DNA of 64,000 bases from Myxococcota bacterium (lineage in GTDB: Bacteria; Myxococcota; B64-G9). Of this stretch, positions 30,501 through 38,658 are shown in pieces (the stretch's first letter is position 1; the number at the start of each line of letters is the position of its first letter). The stretch spans positions 62,001-126,000 of the forward strand of contig JAKLGA010000008.1 of the NCBI GenBank assembly GCA_022710975.1, read 5' to 3'. The position numbers and the translations under genes were made by a program. Below the pieces are notes generated by a model that ran no database searches, had not been told where the DNA came from, and was given only the letters and a program-made list of their open reading frames with translations.

Positions 30501-32227
30501 GGCGCGGCGGCCTCCAGGCGGGCGAGGGCGGCCTGGTAGGCCGCGTCCTGGAGCAGGCCGTCCCAGGCCGGCGTGGGCGTGAAGGCCGGCGACTCCAGCT
30601 CGGCGTAGGCGACCGCGCCGGGCTGCGGCAGCTCTTGCGCCAGGGGGATCCCCTCGCGCCGGAAACTCACGCAGCAAGCGTGCGCCTCCAGGGGCACGGC
30701 CAGCAGGCCGGCCTCGCCCGAGAGCGGCAGCGCCTCGTCCTCCAGGGGCACGCGCACCAGCCAGTCGCCCTTCGGCAGCCGGGCGGGTCCGCGCCCGGCC
30801 TCGCGCGACCGCCGGTTGGAGGCGATCCGCTCGCGCTCCTGGAGCTCCTCGTCCACGTGCGAAAGCGGGCCGAGGCACGCCTCCAGCGCCTCGCGCTGCC
30901 AGGCGCCCTCCCCTTCGAGGCACACCACCAGCCAGCCCTCGGGCAGCTCCCCGGGCGCGAGCTCGTACGCGCGCCGGGCCACCCGGCAGCAACCCGCCCG
31001 TCGCCGGTGGCTCCACACCTCGCCGAGCGTGAGGCGCCGCCCACCCACGGCCGCCGGCAGCAGCTCGGGTACCTCGAGCAGCGCCGTCAAGCCCGCGTCG
31101 CCCTCCGGCGCCGAGTCCGGCCGCAGCAGCAGGCGCGCTGCGAGCTGCACCCTGCGCCGCCAGCCGCTCCGCTCCGCGGGCCCCGCGCCCGGGCCCAGGC
31201 GGGAGAGCTCCTCGGTCAGCCAGGTGCGCATGAGCTGGGGCAAGGCGTTGCGCGCCGCGCGCAGGCAGGTCTGGTAGGTGCCGTCCTTGATCACGTCGCT
31301 GTGCGAGGCGTTGCGCCTGAGGGCCGGGTGCTCGACGAAGCCCACCGCGCCGGCCTGGGCCAGGAGATCCTCGTGGAGCTCGGCCTCGGAGACCACCACG
31401 CCCGCCAGGCATAGCCACAGGTGGCAGCCCAGCCCGGCCTCGGCGGGCAGGGCCAGCGCGCCGCGCACCTGGCCGGTCTGGAAGGCGCAGCGGGCGACGG
31501 CGTCGGGCGTCAGCGCAGCGCGCAGATCGCGCCCGTTCAGGGTGACCGGCACGGACGCGAAGCGGCAACCGGCCTCCAGCAGGGGCTCCTCGGGGTTGCG
31601 CACGAACAGCGCCTCGCGCACCACCTTCCAGCTCATGCGTTCGCGCAGGTGGACGCGCGTGCCCTGGGGCGCCTGGCCCGGGCCGAGCTCCTCGAGCGTG
31701 AGCGCGCCCAGCCCCTCGACGCGCAGGCGCAGGCCCTGGGCGCCGTCGCCCGACTCGACCGTCAGCCACCTGGGCTTCAGGGCCAGCGCGGTGTCGAGCC
31801 CCAGGGCCAGGTGGCGCAGCCGCGCCAGGTGGGCGTCGGCGGCGAACAGGTGATCGAACAGGTGCTCGAGCTCCTCGCGGCCGAAGGGCGTGCCGGCGCA
31901 GGTGAGCACCAGATCGTCGGAGTCCATGCGGATGTCCACCTGCGGCGCGCCCGTGGCCACGCCGGCCCGCACGAGCTCGAGCGCGTACATGTGGGGGTCG
32001 GCGAGCTGGAAGCTCTTGATCTTCTCCTGGGCGCGCGCCAGGTCGAGGCGGAAGCGGCCCTCCTCGACCACCTCCCCGGCGCCGCGGGCCTCGGCCAGCA
32101 GCCGCTCCAGCTCCGCGCTGGGCGGCGGCGTGGGCGTCGGCATGGGCTGCGGGCGGATGTCCGCCGGGCTGGCCGGCGCGGCCTTCGCCCCAGGGCGGCG
32201 CCTGCCCGATCGCGGCTTACGCCCCAT
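27548..32227 (-). CDS. Giant HSP90-related repeat protein with degenerate GHKL domain
   Basis: A 1,559-residue protein of no family I can name. Start ATG 32227 overlaps the stop of the HSP90-like gene by 11 bp. Residues 1-45 are basic then Pro-rich. Residues about 60-230 align in order with an HSP90/GHKL ATPase domain, but key residues are lost: the N-box E-x-x-x-N-x-x-D reads ELVRAGVATG (Asn and Asp replaced by Ala) and the DxGxG box reads CAGTPFG. The rest is five copies of an A-B module of about 240 residues. A-parts begin near 251, 503, 772, 991 and 1231 (GQVGL/GELGLPLE type). B-parts lie near 386, 650, 885, 1119 and 1357 (PVFPALEGWPLS, PLFHALGGRAFCL, RVFEGLSGEVWS). The neighbour's A and B parts resemble them. 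No signal peptide or membrane helix is evident. Probable cytosolic partner or scaffold of the HSP90-like ATPase; function unknown. Confidence 0.75.
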   Translation of the reverse strand: MGRKPRSGRRRPGAKAAPASPADIRPQPMPTPTPPPSAELERLLAEARGAGEVVEEGRFRLDLARAQEKIKSFQLADPHMYALELVRAGVATGAPQVDIRMDSDDLVLTCAGTPFGREELEHLFDHLFAADAHLARLRHLALGLDTALALKPRWLTVESGDGAQGLRLRVEGLGALTLEELGPGQAPQGTRVHLRERMSWKVVREALFVRNPEEPLLEAGCRFASVPVTLNGRDLRAALTPDAVARCAFQTGQVRGALALPAEAGLGCHLWLCLAGVVVSEAELHEDLLAQAGAVGFVEHPALRRNASHSDVIKDGTYQTCLRAARNALPQLMRTWLTEELSRLGPGAGPAERSGWRRRVQLAARLLLRPDSAPEGDAGLTALLEVPELLPAAVGGRRLTLGEVWSHRRRAGCCRVARRAYELAPGELPEGWLVVCLEGEGAWQREALEACLGPLSHVDEELQERERIASNRRSREAGRGPARLPKGDWLVRVPLEDEALPLSGEAGLLAVPLEAHACCVSFRREGIPLAQELPQPGAVAYAELESPAFTPTPAWDGLLQDAAYQAALARLEAAAPELLAALAGHFPVLPPPEPTARLPRWTAQGPRAPRDPLAARLRFGLGPEASLVRAHVDRLLERWTPAPEAVPDWLAGWPLFHALGGRAFCLADLRADPRPAWACVEAQPWSDTDEDAHILNLSGLERRLLRSWLGPGRLADGQAALAASRAARALEAERRRKREENVAAAERRAQAPRLPPGEVTVALDLPAQVAPGQVGAAISGKAEGRLTCLLFGLPVCTLEFPAPVPVRAVAELGGMGDVSANDLFDAVQGPGVERLLGAVRERLPALLEALAVREDVPLELRQKVFRVRLARAKELAEVPPALRQARLLPSVGHGLLDLDGLAALVGAGQGRPLVRFTSREASRQRDPLPILRVPSRLANLVARLLGGEARDHSQALEGELVALAFLDQAPRPARLEVATALCVPLAGEGLTGELGLPLEPAAGPASLVTLLLGGRLVGERQVDLLQLPLCGVVSSEAFQPRADFQDVLADGAWAAAEAVLRRAAEQLVLAAVEALHGGACGPGATQAVRLVLRDGLRGRFTGKAGELAGAGLAPWESALAGARVFEGLSGEVWSARELAQAVSRDGSLWVVDALSGRPARGRIMLSGAQPRLRATLEALFGPGALRDGAEQLRLDELAQQRRLEAPTAESLPALRWLRRTALEQDGALRVRGQVGLSAEGPASRGGIEARLIVEGRLLCTHTFPHPLTGLAELALGGLAVDAGWERPAEPAQLAALESLLHAALWSVVGRLAEETTARGEATPEERGNLIAALEAHLAGLTAELEPIQAGAVGQALLAAPVFPALEGWPLSAQEAVAEAAAGRLAVLSAAVRGQAPLQGGAPLGPWARVIRAGEAELAVLRRLLGRRLVLADKAWRARARFEDPGLLGQLRARLGRVGRRVLPALRARQLEKYLTALRLERGDGARLIEAGGGGLDPAHPLWKAAQGALQAGRAPDPWPYLLAAVVSALVPDRVSVEDALALLASLAGGEANGDAEGED

Positions 32228-33893
32228 CGGCGGCCCCCCGCGCCTGCAGGCAGCGCTCCGCGAGCGACGCCACGCGCCCGCCGTCCCCGCCCTCGGCCAG
32301 CAGGATCGCCGCGCCCAGGAGCAGCGCGGCCAGCTCCGGCGCGCCTGGCGCGAGCGCCAGGCAGCTCGCGACCAGCGGCGCATCGCGTAGCAGGACCACC
32401 TGGCGGGCCCCGCCCAGCAGGCTCGGGCGATCGTCGTGCCCGGGCCGGGTCAGGCCGTGAGCCTCGCGCTGGCGCACGTGCACCCGCCCCGCCCACGGGC
32501 TCCCGTCGCCCTCCAGGCGTCCCAGGGCGACGGCCTCCACCTTCAGGCCCGCCTCGCGCAGCAGCTCCCCGACCCGCGTGGCCAAGGCCTGGCCGGCCGG
32601 ATCGAGCTCCACCGGCGCGGGGGCGCAGAACACCTGCTCCGCCCGCCACACCGGGCGCTGGCTCAGCTGCGCCAGGAAGGGCCCGAACCCGTCGAGATCG
32701 CGCAGCACGCGCACCCCCTGCGCGTGCAACAGCTGCGTGACCCGGCTGTCCGCGGCCGCGAGCAGCAGGGCGCCGTCCGGGCCCTCCAGCCGGCCCAGCG
32801 CGCGAGGAGACAGCGGCGCTCCCTGGAGCACGGGCAGCACGGGCTCGTCCCGCAGGAACCTCGCGAGCTGCATGCAGGGCAGCCGCGCGTACCGGTAGGC
32901 GGCCTCCGGCGTGAGCCCGGACGCGCCCGGTCCGCCGCCCTCGCGGGCCAGGCGCTCCAGGGTGTCCACCAGGCGCGGCCTGAGCTGGTCGGCCACCACC
33001 CGCCGCACCAGGGCGAGCAGCCGGTCGTAGCCCTCGTCCTGGCGCACGTTGTCCCGCGTCAGGGTGTGCTCCAGGTCGCGGCTCTTGATCCGCAGACTGA
33101 GCCCGGCCAGGTCCGCGGCGGCGCCGGGCAGGCGGGTGTCCTCGAGCAGGGTGAGGCCGCGGTTGTAGAGGCCGACTTGCGGGGCCAGGTCCCCGTCGTC
33201 CGGGCCGCCCGGCAGGTGCTCGGCGAACCCCACCCAGAGCTCCGTGCCCTCCTCCTGGTGGTGCACCGCCAGCGGCGCGTCCAGGGTGAACTCCTGCCGG
33301 ATCGGCTGACCGTCGGCGAGGATGTCGCACTCGGCGAACTTGCACCAGAAGCGCGCGGCCTCCACCCCCTGGCGGCGCAGCTCCTCGAAGGCCGGCCGCG
33401 AGAAGCACTTGAGCAGGCGCACCGTGGTGCCCTCGACCGGCTCCGGGAGGCGGGCCTTCTCGAAGCGGCCATCCGGCTCGAACCGCACGCGCCAGGCCTC
33501 CCCGCCCCGGCCTGTCTCGACCACCACCAGCTCGGGCTCCAGGGCGAAGAGGCTGACGAAGCCGATGCCGAACTTGCCGATCTTGGTCCGGTCGCCCTCC
33601 TTGGTCGAGCTGAACAGGGTCAGCAGGTAGTCGTCGATGATGCGCTCGTCCATTCCCTCGCCGTTGTCCTGCACCTCGATGGTGCCGAGGCCCGCGGACG
33701 GATCCGCGCCCGTGCCCCGGTACAGGAAGCGGACCTCGATGCGCGTGGAGGCCGCGTCGAGGCTGTTCTGGATGAGCTCGCGCAGGAAGGCGAACGGGTC
33801 CGTGAACTGGTGGACGAGCTCCTGGAAGGCCTCGGAGGCGCCCACCACCGAGCCCCGGACCGCCCGCCGGGGCGATGCCTTGGACGATTTCAT
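32217..33893 (-). CDS. HSP90-type GHKL ATPase
   Basis: A 558-residue cytosolic protein. The N-terminal ATPase domain is complete: N-box RELIQNSLDAA (Glu39, Asn43, Asp46), DNGEGMD at 76-82, a lid start GKFGIGF at 106-112 and a Thr-rich segment EGTTVRL. Residues about 215-315 resemble the HSP90 middle domain (VGLYNRGLTLLEDTRLPG, then RDLEHTLTRDNVRQDEGYD, matching the SRE..Q-type segment of HtpG). A B-type module (PVLPVLQGAPLSPRALGRLEG, about 350-410) and a divergent C-terminal part follow; the usual HtpG dimerisation domain is not recognisable, and it is shorter than HtpG (about 620-640). It is coupled to the giant repeat protein by an 11-bp overlap. Probably a chaperone-like ATPase specialised for that partner. 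Confidence 0.82.
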   Translation of the reverse strand: MKSSKASPRRAVRGSVVGASEAFQELVHQFTDPFAFLRELIQNSLDAASTRIEVRFLYRGTGADPSAGLGTIEVQDNGEGMDERIIDDYLLTLFSSTKEGDRTKIGKFGIGFVSLFALEPELVVVETGRGGEAWRVRFEPDGRFEKARLPEPVEGTTVRLLKCFSRPAFEELRRQGVEAARFWCKFAECDILADGQPIRQEFTLDAPLAVHHQEEGTELWVGFAEHLPGGPDDGDLAPQVGLYNRGLTLLEDTRLPGAAADLAGLSLRIKSRDLEHTLTRDNVRQDEGYDRLLALVRRVVADQLRPRLVDTLERLAREGGGPGASGLTPEAAYRYARLPCMQLARFLRDEPVLPVLQGAPLSPRALGRLEGPDGALLLAAADSRVTQLLHAQGVRVLRDLDGFGPFLAQLSQRPVWRAEQVFCAPAPVELDPAGQALATRVGELLREAGLKVEAVALGRLEGDGSPWAGRVHVRQREAHGLTRPGHDDRPSLLGGARQVVLLRDAPLVASCLALAPGAPELAALLLGAAILLAEGGDGGRVASLAERCLQARGAADGA

Positions 33894-33900
33894 CTTCTCT

Positions 33901-33921
33901 CCAGCGCTGGAAAATCTAGCA
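33901..33921 (-). promoter_or_regulatory. Extended -10 promoter and palindrome for the HSP90-like operon
   Basis: On the minus strand TGC-TAGATT (33913-33921) is an extended -10 with 4 of 6 matches and no good -35. The start would be near 33906, inside the perfect palindrome CCAGCGCTGG (33901-33910), which is placed like a repressor site. The ATG follows 13 bases later behind GGAGAGAAG. Confidence 0.4.
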
Positions 33922-33947
33922 GATGGGAGGCGCGGTGGGCAGAAAAT

Positions 33948-33975
33948 TTGACAGACATCCTACATGTGGTATCAT
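33948..33975 (+). promoter_or_regulatory. Near-consensus sigma-70 promoter
   Basis: TTGACA (33948-33953), 16-bp spacer, TATCAT (33970-33975; 5 of 6). It is one of the two best promoters in the window. Transcription would start near 33982 and meets a strong terminator at 34110, before the subtilase gene. Confidence 0.7.
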
Positions 33976-33979
33976 GTAG
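33960..33979. promoter_or_regulatory. Operator overlapping the -10 box
   Basis: A perfect inverted repeat CTACATG-N6-CATGTAG. Its right half covers the -10 hexamer, so a bound dimeric regulator would block RNA polymerase. No regulator gene lies nearby; the identity of the repressor is unknown. Confidence 0.55.
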
Positions 33980-33981
33980 TC

Positions 33982-34110
33982 AGATGAGGCATTGAGTGGC
34001 ACATCCACCCTCCAGTGGAAGGTGCCCGAGGTTGACCGGATGGGTCCCTCCCCCGTCCGGTCGGCCCACCGCCGGAAGGGCACGCGCGCACGTGCCCTTC
34101 CTTTTTTTTT
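33982..34110 (+). ncRNA. Structured leader or small RNA (about 128 nt)
   Basis: Between the promoter and the terminator there are three stem-loops. The first is 33998-34026, nested, with GGCAC/GTGCC outside and CCAC/GTGG inside. The second is 34034-34062, with 7-bp arms GACCGGA/TCCGGTC. The third is the terminator stem 34074-34101. There is no credible ORF; only a 3-codon ATG-AGG-CAT at 33984. Either this is a free-standing small RNA, or an attenuator-type leader of the subtilase gene whose ATG lies 44 bases past the terminator. I cannot tell which, and recognise no known RNA family. Confidence 0.5.
34074..34110 (+). terminator. Strong Rho-independent terminator
   Basis: A perfect 11-bp stem GGAAGGGCACG / CGTGCCCTTCC with a 6-base loop, followed by nine consecutive T. 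It is the strongest terminator in the window and sits upstream, not downstream, of the next ORF. Confidence 0.9.
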
Positions 34111-34153
34111 ACCCTGTGCCAGAGTCTCCCCAGCGTCTACCCGGGAGGGTCCC

Positions 34154-36283
34154 ATGCACTCGGCGCCTGCCCTGCTCGCGGTTTCGCTGGCCGCCCTGCT
34201 CGCCCCGGGCCTCGCCCCGGCGGCCGAGCCCAACCCCTACTTCCGCCTGCTCGAGCGCTCCACCCGCTTGCAGGCCGGTTTCCGGGCGCTGCCCCTGGGC
34301 CTGGAGTTGCTGCCGCACCCCTTCGCCTCGGGCACGCCGCTCTTCCCGGCGCTGCTCGACTCGGCCGATCCGGCCGCCACGGCGGCCGCCGTGGAGCAGC
34401 TCGGCGGACGGGCCGCCAGGCCCATCGGCAGCGTCCTGCCGGTGCGCGCCAGCCTGGAGGCGCTCTCGGCCCTGGCCTGCAGGCCGGAGGTCAGGCGGCT
34501 GGAGGCCCGGCCACCGCTGCGGCCCCGGCTCGACCTCAGCCGCCCCGACGTCAGGGCGGATCAGGTCGAGGCGGGCGTCGGCCTGCCCCTGCCCGTGGAC
34601 GGCAGCGGCGTGCTGGTCGCCCTGGTGGACACCGGGGTCGACTTCCGCCACCCGGACCTCCTCAGCCCGAGCGGCCGGACCCGGGTCCAGCTCCTCTGGG
34701 ATCAGGCCTTCGGCTCGGGCGCGCCGCCCCCGGGCCAGACCGTGGGCAGCCTGTGCGACCGGGACAGCCTGGTGCGCGGGACCTGCACCTCCATCGACCT
34801 GGTGGGCCACGGCACGCACGTCACCGCGACCATGGCCAGCTCGGGCGAGGCCTTTCGCGGCATGGCGCCGGGCGCGGACATCATGGCGGTGGCCTCGCTC
34901 GACTTCGCCCTGCTGGTGGAGTCGGTGGACTGGCTGTTCCAGCAGGCGGCCGAGCGCGGCCAGCCCATGGTGGTCAACCTGAGCCTGGGCGGGCACTACG
35001 GCCCCCACGACGGCACCGCCCTCGAGGACAGCGCGCTGTCCGCGCTGACCGGGCCCGGGCGCATCATCGTGGCCGCGGCCGGCAACGAGGGGAACGACCG
35101 CATCCACCTCGGCTACGATCCGCAAGGCGGCACGGGCAAGACCCTGCTCGCCATCTACGGGGGCATGGACGTGAGCGCGGCGCTGCTGGACACCTGGGTC
35201 GCGCCGGGCGCCCAGCTCGAGTTCGCCGTGGGCGTGCAGCGGGACGGCCAGGAGGTGGCCGAGACGCCCTTCACCGCCGCGGCGGGCCCGGGCGGCGCCT
35301 ACCCGCTCGAGGACGCGGACGGCACGCCTCTCGGGCGGGTGGACTTCCAGCCCGCGGCCGGTCCGGACGCGCAGAACGGCAAGCAGCAGCTCGACCTGGT
35401 GATCGAGCCGACGGAGAACGCCTACGCCGGGAACGCCCGCGGCTACGCCTGGTACGTGAAGGCGCGGGGGAGCGGGGCGTTCGACTGCTGGAGCGCCGCG
35501 GCGGGGTTCTTCACCTCGCCGGCGCTCTTCTCGGATCGCAGCGACGGGGGGCTGGTGCCGGGCGACACCCGGCTGACGGTCGGCGCGCCGGCGGTGGCCC
35601 GGGACGTGCTGGCCATCGGCTCCTACGCCACGCGCGCCGCCTGGACCGACGCGCACGGCGCGGCGCAGGACCACCCTGAGACCACCGAGGGCGACCTGTC
35701 CTTCTTCTCCAGCCGCGGCCCCTCGGCCGATCCCGAGCGCACCGGCCAGAAGCCCCTCCTGGCCGCGCCGGGGGAGTTCATCGCCGCGGCCATGTCGCAG
35801 AGCACGGGCGAGATGACCGACGGGACACAGCTCGACGAGGGTCACCTGGTCATGCGCGGCACCAGCATGGCCTGCCCCCACGCCGCCGGCGTGGTGGCGC
35901 TCATGCTGCAGGCCGATCCCCTGCTGGAGCCCGCCCGGGTGGCCGAGATCCTGGCCGCCACGGCCCGGCGCGACGGGCACACCGGCCAGGACCTCCCGGA
36001 CGACGCCTGGGGCTTCGGCAAGATCGACGCGCTGGAGGCCGTGGCCATGAGCCTCGGCACCGGGCTGTGCCGGTCCCCGGCGGACTGCGCGGAGGGCCAC
36101 CGCTGCGGCGACGAGGGGCGCTGCCTGGCGGAGGAGAGCGGTTGCGCCACGGGCGGCGCGGCGGGTCCGGGGCTGCCGTTCGGCGCGCTGCTGATCGCGG
36201 TCCTGCTGCTCGGCCGGCGGCCTAGCGCCAGTCGAAGGGGATGGTCACGTTCTGCACCTGGCCCTGGAACTCGCGGAACTTGA
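34154..36283 (+). CDS. S8 subtilisin-like protease with MYXO-CTERM-like tail
   Basis: A 709-residue exported protease. ATG 34154 has GGGAGGG upstream and a signal peptide (LLAVSLAALLAPGLAPAAE). A propeptide of about 110 residues comes next. The catalytic triad is Asp159 (LVDTGVD), His219 (GHGTHV) and Ser571 (GTSMACPHAAG); an extra beta-rich segment of about 220 residues lies between the His/Asn region (AAAGNEG) and Ser. The end holds a Cys-rich stretch, then SGCATGG, a hydrophobic helix (GALLIAVLLLG) and RR, resembling the MYXO-CTERM sorting signal used for T2SS-exported surface proteins. Unusually the frame runs about 20 residues past the Arg pair, overlapping the convergent AgmX gene by 62 bp. 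It lies downstream of a structured leader. Confidence 0.9.
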   Translation: MHSAPALLAVSLAALLAPGLAPAAEPNPYFRLLERSTRLQAGFRALPLGLELLPHPFASGTPLFPALLDSADPAATAAAVEQLGGRAARPIGSVLPVRASLEALSALACRPEVRRLEARPPLRPRLDLSRPDVRADQVEAGVGLPLPVDGSGVLVALVDTGVDFRHPDLLSPSGRTRVQLLWDQAFGSGAPPPGQTVGSLCDRDSLVRGTCTSIDLVGHGTHVTATMASSGEAFRGMAPGADIMAVASLDFALLVESVDWLFQQAAERGQPMVVNLSLGGHYGPHDGTALEDSALSALTGPGRIIVAAAGNEGNDRIHLGYDPQGGTGKTLLAIYGGMDVSAALLDTWVAPGAQLEFAVGVQRDGQEVAETPFTAAAGPGGAYPLEDADGTPLGRVDFQPAAGPDAQNGKQQLDLVIEPTENAYAGNARGYAWYVKARGSGAFDCWSAAAGFFTSPALFSDRSDGGLVPGDTRLTVGAPAVARDVLAIGSYATRAAWTDAHGAAQDHPETTEGDLSFFSSRGPSADPERTGQKPLLAAPGEFIAAAMSQSTGEMTDGTQLDEGHLVMRGTSMACPHAAGVVALMLQADPLLEPARVAEILAATARRDGHTGQDLPDDAWGFGKIDALEAVAMSLGTGLCRSPADCAEGHRCGDEGRCLAEESGCATGGAAGPGLPFGALLIAVLLLGRRPSASRRGWSRSAPGPGTRGT

Positions 36284-37229
36284 GCAGGTCGAGCTGCCGC
36301 CGGAAACACTGGTGGAGGTTGCCCTCCTCCAGCCGTACGTCGCCCATCTGGACGTTGTGGACCCGGCCATCGTTCTTGATCGAGAAGCTCACCACCACCC
36401 GGTCTGGGAGCTGGGAGTTGCGGCGGATCTCCTCCACCAGGCAGCCCTTGAGGCGTTTCATGTTGGTGGAGGAGTAGACCTTGGACTCGATCTGCTCCCG
36501 GCCGAGCTGGCCGACGTTGGCGACCTCGGCGGTGTCGGGGCGCCCAGACGTGCCCGCGTCGGGACGCGCCTCGGGCGGCCGGTCGGGCCGGGGTCGGCGC
36601 CGGCCGCCGGCCGAGTCGGGCTTCAGCGCCACCAGCTCGGGCGCGTCCTCGATCAGGATCTTCTCGATGTTGATGGCGCGCAGCTCCGGCGACTCCACCT
36701 CGGAGGGTCCGAGGCCGGCGCGGCTCCCCCCGGCCATGGCGGCCGGCAGCCCGATGAGCGGCACGTGCCGCTCGGCCCAGGCCTTCAGGTTCTGCTCGTT
36801 GCGGTAGGGGTTCTGCACGATCAGCAGGTAGACCACGGCGAAGGAGGTGACCACCAGCGCCCCGGCGCCGATGCCGATGTTGATGAGGTGGCGCAGCTTG
36901 CGCCGCCTGGCGGCGAGCTCCGCCTCGGCCCGGGCCCGCTCCGCGCGCAGCTTGGCCTTGGCCTGGTAGAGGAAGGGGTGCCAGGCCGGCAGCTGCTGGA
37001 CGCTGACCCAGGCACCCTCCTCGAGGCTCACCTGGGTGGACTCGTCGATCTCGCCGACGAACATGCGCTCGACGATCTCGCGGGAGGACACTGGCCCGAG
37101 CACCTCGCCCTGGAGCTTGAAGAGCCAATCGCCCCGGGGCAGCTCGGGCTGCCTCTCGCCCTGGGATGCTTGGATGCCTGCGCCGCTCACCCGTCTCGCC
37201 CGTGACCGGCGCGAACGCGTCCGCGCCAT
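36222..37229 (-). CDS. GYF-domain, single-TM protein with AgmX/PglI-type C-terminal domain
   Basis: About 335 residues. The N-terminal part has a GYF_2-type domain (DWLFKLQGEVLGPVSSREIVERMFVGEI, then GAWVSVQQLPAW). A basic coiled stretch rich in Ala, Arg and Glu follows. One transmembrane helix (LINIGIGAGALVVTSFAVVYLLIV) precedes a Pro/Arg linker, and a C-terminal domain of about 110 residues has the AgmX/PglI (TonB-like) pattern: KRLKGCLVEEIRRNSQLPDRVVVSFSIKNDGRVHNVQM, then CFRRQLDLLKFREF. In Myxococcus, AgmX belongs to gliding motility machinery. Start is uncertain: ATG 37229 and GTG 37259 both lack a good ribosome-binding site. It overlaps the subtilase 3' end by 62 bp. Confidence 0.72.
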   Translation of the reverse strand: MARTRSRRSRARRVSGAGIQASQGERQPELPRGDWLFKLQGEVLGPVSSREIVERMFVGEIDESTQVSLEEGAWVSVQQLPAWHPFLYQAKAKLRAERARAEAELAARRRKLRHLINIGIGAGALVVTSFAVVYLLIVQNPYRNEQNLKAWAERHVPLIGLPAAMAGGSRAGLGPSEVESPELRAINIEKILIEDAPELVALKPDSAGGRRRPRPDRPPEARPDAGTSGRPDTAEVANVGQLGREQIESKVYSSTNMKRLKGCLVEEIRRNSQLPDRVVVSFSIKNDGRVHNVQMGDVRLEEGNLHQCFRRQLDLLKFREFQGQVQNVTIPFDWR

Positions 37230-37514: not shown

Positions 37515-37928
37515 TCAGGCCACCCGCGCCTCGTGGAGTCGCGGGAAGGCGTCCAGGCCGCCGGCGCCCAGGAGCAGCGCGGCGAGCCTCTTCAGTTGCC
37601 AGGGCAGCAGCCCGACGAAACGCACGCCCATGCCGAGCGTCCCCCGGAGGGGCTCGTCGTTGGACCACAGCACCTCGACCTGCATGCGCAGCATGGCCGG
37701 GCTGCCCGGGAGCTGAAGCCGCAGGGTGGCCAGCGGGCCGGGGCCCTCCGGCGCGGGTGTGGCGAGGAACGCACCCCGCAGGTTGAGGTCCGTCACCCGC
37801 ACGAGCAGCATGCGCTCGGAGCCCTCGAAGAAGCCCTCCAGCGGGCAGCGCAGCCTCGGGTACCGGCGGCGCTGGGGCGCCCGCCTCCGGTCGCCGCGAT
37901 GTCTCCGATCCTGGATGCGCGCGTGCAT
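37515..37928 (-). CDS. PilZ-domain protein
   Basis: A 137-residue protein starting at ATG 37928 (GGGAGG 5 bases upstream). It is a single PilZ domain: RRRYPRLRCPL near the N-terminus matches the RxxxR c-di-GMP-binding motif, and DLNLRGAFLAT corresponds to the (D/N)xSxxG motif with Asn-Leu-Arg in place of Ser, and LGMGVRFVG to the conserved strand before the C-terminal helix. The substitution may weaken binding. An alternative start with a much longer frame (from 38312) has no support. The domain links to the HD-GYP enzyme in the window through c-di-GMP. A promoter lies at 37961-37989. Confidence 0.75.
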   Translation of the reverse strand: MHARIQDRRHRGDRRRAPQRRRYPRLRCPLEGFFEGSERMLLVRVTDLNLRGAFLATPAPEGPGPLATLRLQLPGSPAMLRMQVEVLWSNDEPLRGTLGMGVRFVGLLPWQLKRLAALLLGAGGLDAFPRLHEARVA

Positions 37929-37960
37929 GGGAGCCTCCCGGTGGCCAGCATCTGTGAGCA

Positions 37961-37989
37961 AAGGTACTACATCAGACCACCCATGGCAA
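37961..37989 (-). promoter_or_regulatory. Promoter for the PilZ operon
   Basis: On the minus strand TTGCCA (37984-37989; 5 of 6), 17-bp spacer, TACCTT (37961-37966; 3 of 6). The start would be near 37954, 26 bases before the ATG. Confidence 0.4.
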
Positions 37990-38073
37990 GAAACCTGCCC
38001 GCCGCTTCCCCCTTGAACCCCGCCCCGAGTTGGGCAACCATAGCTGCCAGCAACAGCCAGGAGGCATGCGAAC

Positions 38074-38658
38074 ATGAGCGATCCCTCCAGCCCGGCGGGC
38101 CGGGGACAACCCAAGAGCGCGGCACCTGCCGCGGCGCCCAAGGGCCCCTCCTCGTTCGGCGAGCTCGACCTGGGCGTCGAGGAGACTCCGAGCGGCCTGG
38201 ATCTCGACACGGGCGGCGGCTCCGCGGCCAAGCAGGAGTACGAGGCGGACGAGCTGGTGGACCTGCCCACGGCCAAGAAGCCCCCGCCCGCGAGCCGCCG
38301 GGTGCCGATCAACTACGGGACCGCAGCCAAGGCCCAGCCCGAGGGGGAGGAGCGGCCCGCCGCCCGGTCGAAGCCCGCCGCCCCGGCCGAGCCAGCCGCG
38401 CCGGCCCGTGCCCAGGCTCGCCCGCGGCCGCCGCGGCCGGAGGAGCCGCCCGAGCCCAAGCGCTCCTACGCCCGGGAGATCAAGATCGCGATCCTGGTGA
38501 TCGTCTGCCTGGGGCTGATCGGCGGAGGGGTGTACGGCTTCCTCGAGTGGCGCGAGGGCGTGCGCCTGGCTGAGGAGGCCCAGATGAACGCCCTGAACAA
38601 GGGCAGCCTCGACAGCCTCAAGAACGACAGCCTGAACAAGGGCAAGCTCGGCACCTGA
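38074..38658 (+). CDS. Hypothetical single-TM protein with low-complexity cytoplasmic part
   Basis: A 194-residue protein. AGGAGG lies about 9 bases before the ATG. Residues 1-130 are low-complexity, rich in Pro, Ala, Glu and Arg. A transmembrane helix (EIKIAILVIVCLGLIGGGVYGFL, about 136-158) has a positive-inside N side (KRSYAREIK). A short periplasmic tail contains a near-repeat, LNKGSLDSLKNDSLNKGKL. I recognise no family. A similar plan (disordered cytoplasmic part, one helix, short tail) is seen in myxobacterial signalling anchors, but nothing firm can be said. It is divergent from the PilZ gene and convergent with the NifU-like gene, 9 bp away. Confidence 0.6.
   Translation: MSDPSSPAGRGQPKSAAPAAAPKGPSSFGELDLGVEETPSGLDLDTGGGSAAKQEYEADELVDLPTAKKPPPASRRVPINYGTAAKAQPEGEERPAARSKPAAPAEPAAPARAQARPRPPRPEEPPEPKRSYAREIKIAILVIVCLGLIGGGVYGFLEWREGVRLAEEAQMNALNKGSLDSLKNDSLNKGKLGT

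Follow-up and report, generated by a model that had tools for sequence, protein, structure and literature searches.

Is the structured region that precedes a protease gene of a Myxococcota bacterium a gene in its own right, or is it the leader of the protease mRNA? This question is raised by a locus within a 64,000-nucleotide stretch of DNA (the window), for which a first-pass annotation had proposed a small RNA gene or an attenuator/riboswitch leader. Judged from its sequence, this region very probably holds a gene for a small RNA: we show that it has its own promoter, hairpins with C-rich loops and a terminator, that its structure is conserved with covariation and that it occurs independently of the subtilase. 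We also propose that its product is likely an anti-Shine-Dalgarno regulator.

At the window locus, a sigma-70 type promoter with an extended -10 (33948-33975, + strand) combines a -35 box TTGACA (33948-33953), a 16-nt spacer and a TATCAT -10 box (33970-33975), with 11/12 matches to the consensus. It is the sole promoter-like match between 32000 and 37000 on both strands (mean of 0.1 in shuffles). The 5′ end of the RNA (~128 nt, 33982-34110, + strand) was deduced from the position of the -10 box and its 3′ end from the terminator. These 129 nt are predicted to fold at -70.2 kcal/mol (z -6.2; none of 200 shuffles is equally stable) into three hairpins. Hairpin 1 (33996-34027, + strand) exposes the apical loop CCUCCA (34009-34014), and hairpin 2 (34030-34066, + strand), identified by fold and covariance and the one matched by the family model, exposes UCCCUCC (34045-34051), so that two of the three loops contain CCUCC. 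The third is an intrinsic terminator (34074-34110, + strand) with a stem of 11 pairs (34074-34101), a loop of six, CGCGCA (34085-34090), and nine T. Thus, the near-consensus promoter, the three stem-loops within about 128 nt before the protease ATG (34154) and the 11-bp terminator stem with its nine T, as described in the first-pass annotation, were all recovered. The downstream neighbour, which is not a required part of the element, encodes a secreted-type subtilase (Peptidase_S8 domain match; ORF 34154-36283, + strand) that starts 43 nt after the terminator; on the upstream side, a HATPase/Hsp90-like gene begins at 33893 and runs divergently.

The annotation had recognised no known RNA family, and this holds: neither the window nor the member loci that were scanned gave an Rfam match at gathering score. 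When the region 33880-34160 was searched at E up to 10, seven matches were obtained, none of them credible and none to alpha-r14; BjrC68 had the best E (18.1 bits; threshold 39) and sX14 the best score (20.2 bits; threshold 80).

Relatives of the RNA were searched at several levels. In a direct DNA search of 97 relatives, significant same-family matches covered the promoter region and left the RNA body unmatched. Upstream of the subtilase orthologs of four genomes (G001, G005, G007 and G008) we found the same promoter, a hairpin with a C-rich loop and a near-identical terminator. A covariance model built from these four loci (R1) and run on 195 Myxococcota genomes retrieved eight carriers in the window's own family and six others (G018, G024, G030, G034, G037 and G042), and a second model built from the 14 members (R2) added G040. 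Altogether, the same RNA is present in 15/195 genomes belonging to six families, with one accepted copy per genome. Within the window's family, 8/9 genomes carry it, G004 being devoid of it; the seven remaining carriers are distributed over five families. Its predicted length is ~128 nt at the window locus versus ~90 nt in the same-family relatives. Members scored 39.8-83.2 bits with R2, and the best score in 21 control genomes, selected for containing a chance match to the pattern, was 26.2 bits.

Not all matches were retained. R1 matches at E up to 0.01 came from 28 genomes, of which 14 were accepted; those of the other 14 were dropped with scores of at most 33.5 bits. Matches from six of the dropped genomes (L121 and L124-L128), for which the sequences were inspected, lacked either the CCUCC loop or the GCGCGCAC loop. 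Opposite-strand R1 matches at true members, due to the terminator hairpin, were also discarded. With R2 at E up to 0.001, 15 of 18 genomes were accepted, the matches in G054, G157 and G161 being rejected after sequence inspection. At the loci of G161 (L193:1501-1592, - strand) and G157 (L195:1501-1592, + strand), both of family f8, a CCCCUCCCC-loop hairpin and a very strong second hairpin were noted after an apparent stop codon; this element looks like a different C-rich-loop RNA or a 3′ element. Beyond this genome set, a scan of a genome collection yielded 33 stretches. Of these, 11 are members, and the MAGs they come from all carry the label Myxococcota, Myxococcales or Deltaproteobacteria; the remaining 22 gave no R1 match above 21.8 bits. 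Since the scan demands an exact pattern, which even the RNA of the window fails to match, it is a weak test of absence elsewhere. Plasmid records gave just short matches to the hairpins.

The structure of the RNA is conserved among its members. In an alignment of 14 sequences fitted to the model, which by construction leans toward the structure, 95.1% of base-pair cells are paired, as compared with at most 50.8% in slid controls, and changes on both sides were seen in 15/19 pairs, including 10/10 pairs of the loop helix. Because of this leaning, unfitted alignments were folded as well. With MAFFT and RNAalifold, all 15 members together gave the terminator helix only, the first helix being unaligned, and subgroups of seven were therefore used. 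Both helices, with compensatory changes, were then obtained for the seven same-family members other than the window's genome (G000) and, separately, for the seven members from other families. G-U cells (20) outnumber A-C cells (3), as expected of the sense strand. The first-pass annotation had put forward stem conservation among relatives as a test of its reading; this was examined, and the covarying stems are kept. A coding role was rejected: the frame that enters the subtilase at the window has stops in G005, and the stems covary.

Two loops stand out in this conserved structure. CCUCC lies within an apical loop in 14/15 minimum-energy folds; the exception is G040, with a predicted loop CCCCUC, where the motif is unpaired with a mean probability of 0.84, compared with 0.96-1.00 in the other members. 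The terminator loop CGCGCA, closed by a G-C pair, is invariant (15/15 members). More variable are the second CCUCC hairpin (hairpin 1 at the window), found in G000 only among the eight same-family members, the further 5′ hairpin that folds in most members outside this family, and the T-tails, which are weak in G002, G007 and most members outside the family.

The genes around the RNA bear on whether it is free-standing. The subtilase lies directly behind it in five genomes (G000, G001, G005, G007 and G008), and this is what would be expected if the region were mainly a transcription attenuator or leader, with one promoter for the RNA and the subtilase and a regulated termination at 34074-34110 that sets the amount of protease. 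The 43 nt between terminator and ATG at the window, the lack of any other detected promoter for the subtilase (32000-37000, both strands), the terminator of G007 without a T run, and the own promoter (TTGACA-16-TACTGT, by eye) of the G003 subtilase, which is located on another contig, point in the same direction. However, the RNA is not always upstream of a gene that it could control as a leader. In G002 and G003 it is kept with the flanks of the protease loci, a TPR-type gene on one side and a convergent gene on the other, but no subtilase lies behind it; in G006 a 1005-codon ORF separates the two; and in 6/7 members outside the family (G018, G024, G030, G034, G040 and G042) it adjoins a divergent M16 peptidase-domain gene, G037 having other neighbours and none of the seven a listed subtilase beside the RNA. 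Moreover, the predicted fold of the window RNA contains no competing antiterminator pairing, and no riboswitch or leader family matched at the Rfam gathering score. A leader as the main function is thus unlikely. Since the RNA is kept without the subtilase and has an M16 neighbour elsewhere, we consider it a free-standing gene and not an obligate leader: of the two options in the first-pass annotation, the small RNA gene stands, with covarying stems conserved in 15 genomes, and the leader does not hold as the primary role. Partial read-through past the terminator is nonetheless possible in the five genomes where the subtilase follows directly, and at the window the short distance to the ATG and the lack of another detected promoter suggest that it may supply the subtilase.

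That the hairpins are an inert cluster, or a plain terminator between two genes, is scarcely credible. Expression of the RNA is, admittedly, deduced from sequence, but compensatory changes in 15 genomes, a promoter kept in 8/8 same-family members and R2 scores well above those of the control genomes all argue against it. It is also rather improbable that the RNA is primarily a protein-binding RNA, whose CGCGCA terminator loop and C-rich loop would titrate or recruit an RNA-binding protein, pairing with mRNAs being secondary. Indeed, the closure of CGCGCA by G-C in 15/15 members goes beyond the needs of termination, but a protein partner is not known, and base pairing directly explains the C-rich loop.

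We consider it probable that the locus is a free-standing gene of an undescribed Myxococcota small-RNA family, whose product would act as an Hfq-independent repressor in trans by means of anti-Shine-Dalgarno loops. In this mechanism, the CUCCCUCC-type loops would copy the anti-Shine-Dalgarno of the ribosome and pair with G-rich, AGGAGGGAG-like ribosome-binding sites; several mRNAs would thereby be masked at these sites and blocked in translation. The invariant CGCGCA terminator loop is a probable second functional site, for protein docking or as a second seed; where the subtilase follows, transcripts that pass the terminator may supply it as well. The RNA shows the features of the functional class of anti-SD loop trans-acting small RNAs, namely an unpaired CCUCC in a stable hairpin with an own promoter and terminator, the promoter being present in 8/8 same-family members and convincing in only some of the seven others. 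Regarding Hfq, PF17209 was found in 0/94 Myxococcota genomes searched, with the control detected in 5/14 named genomes, and a published passage on myxobacteria agrees with its absence (PMC5568312).

Possible targets were then considered. The Shine-Dalgarno sequence of the subtilase, GGGAGGG (34143-34149, + strand), is complementary to the CCCUCC loops and is a possible target: in a crude pairing scan of 17 gene starts in the window, the subtilase start ranked first for pairing with the loops. In other genomes, the subtilase starts look less complementary to the loops when inspected by eye. No recurrent target emerged from a search by extended complementarity: of 72 AGGAGGGAG-before-ATG sites in the nine family genomes, the 30 with listed loci were examined, and no two of them encode related proteins. 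G004, which is devoid of the RNA, still has seven AGGAGGGAG-before-ATG sites, and complementarity to an anti-Shine-Dalgarno is generic. With weaker subtilase starts elsewhere and no recurring target, pairing in trans is therefore a proposed mechanism.

Several known small RNAs resemble this one. NfeR1 of Sinorhizobium is described as silencing ntrB through anti-SD loops with CCUCCUCCC motifs (PMC10746234). The NfeR1/alpha-r14 and 'cuckoo'/CcsR RNAs of Alphaproteobacteria share with the Myxococcota RNA an organisation in several hairpins, an unpaired anti-Shine-Dalgarno containing CCUCC and stems that vary, as documented for NfeR1 (PMC10746234). However, the Myxococcota motif is CUCCCUCCU or CCCCCUCC, in contrast to the ultraconserved CCUCCUCCC of NfeR1/alpha-r14; there are three such loops in NfeR1/alpha-r14, compared with one in most members and two at the window; and the invariant CGCGCA terminator loop and the phylum also set them apart. 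Identity with alpha-r14/cuckoo was rejected, with no match to an Rfam covariance model at the gathering score or at E up to 10, and CCUCCUCCC absent from the unpaired regions of the window RNA, whose loops are CCUCCA and UCCCUCC.

Pxr of Myxococcus, from the same phylum, likewise has three stem-loops, a C-rich first loop, a conserved terminator stem and no Hfq, but its loops are runs of C whereas those of the present RNA carry CCUCC. Pxr is described with a sigma-54 promoter and pxrR as a neighbour (PMC5684412, PMC5568312), and the window RNA has a sigma-70 type promoter and an HATPase/Hsp90-like neighbour, not nla19/pxrR. The complement of the Pxr probe was found in 0/9 genomes of the window's family (at most 3 mismatches) and in 59/195 genomes overall, all of family f8 and none among the 15 carriers. 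In addition, R2 gave a best E of 0.13 over three Pxr loci, which is not significant. These results do not support identity with Pxr. Finally, LhrC is reported to bind via UCCC motifs with no need for Hfq, and in LhrC, RsaE and FsrA C-rich unpaired motifs are described as binding at Shine-Dalgarno sequences (PMC4132741); these RNAs differ by their low-GC Gram-positive hosts and, for LhrC, by five near-identical copies per genome, and the likeness is that of a short motif. Altogether, the Myxococcota RNA most likely works like NfeR1 and yet is neither NfeR1 nor Pxr.

By these computational lines of evidence, the small-RNA gene is real and conserved, and its family is undescribed; a limited search of the open-licence literature found no such Myxococcota small-RNA family named, Pxr excepted. 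As Pxr is confined here to one family, the new family would be a second small-RNA lineage in Myxococcota, and would allow one to ask how trans-acting RNAs work in a phylum without Hfq. Regulators with anti-Shine-Dalgarno loops would, moreover, seem to have arisen here independently, in association with a defined promoter palindrome and with a few genes that lend themselves to joint testing.

This palindrome, CCTACATGTAG, overlaps the -10 box of the RNA promoter. At the window, the spacer and -10 box form an inverted repeat CTACATG-N6-CATGTAG (33960-33979) within a palindromic operator (33957-33979, no strand); neither this repeat nor the CCUCC of two loops had been pointed out in the first-pass annotation. 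TTGAC and a -10 box stand at the expected place before the RNA in 8/8 same-family members; outside the family, the promoters of G030, G034 and G040 have 10-11/12 matches and those of the other four are unconvincing. Among the matches listed for 97 genomes, 12 sites match TCCTACATGTNGNANNATGTAG with no more than one mismatch; every one belongs to the window's family and precedes a gene or the small RNA itself: five are RNA promoters, three precede a gene for a ~55-residue secreted-looking peptide, two a PilZ gene (confirmed in G004, by resemblance in G005) and two a gene for a ~100-residue secreted-looking protein. In G000, weaker sites (2 mismatches) precede the gene of the ~55-residue peptide and occupy the region between PilZ and MshEN genes; at the RNA itself, G001, G006 and G007 have a degenerate operator. 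In the window's family, a putative regulator acting at the CTACATGTAG palindrome over the -10 box would control the RNA and, along with it, the genes that encode short secreted peptides, PilZ proteins and MshEN proteins. A broader and rather doubtful proposal makes the RNA a Pxr counterpart for other Myxococcota. It would act without Hfq through two invariant loops, of which one is an anti-Shine-Dalgarno seed and the other, CGCGCA at the terminator, docks an RNA-binding protein, and a palindrome-binding regulator would switch it together with the secreted peptide, PilZ, MshEN and the read-through protease as one signalling circuit.

Around individual palindrome sites, the ~55-residue peptide gene was seen in several genomes of the family, with 1 mismatch at L004, L006 and L018 and 2-3 mismatches at L172 (G000, C26) and L182. 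At L174 (G000, C28) and L176 (G001), divergent PilZ and MshEN genes, both confirmed with Pfam, share one promoter region with the palindrome. The ~100-residue secreted-looking protein is encoded behind the palindrome at L031 and L175, and at L031 a lipoprotein-like gene, which matches Peptidase_M49, diverges from it. Separately, a frame with a PilZ domain (5.5e-10) is located two genes downstream of the subtilase in the window (37515-38309, - strand), and similar PilZ-like frames also occur near the small RNA in G003 and G008.
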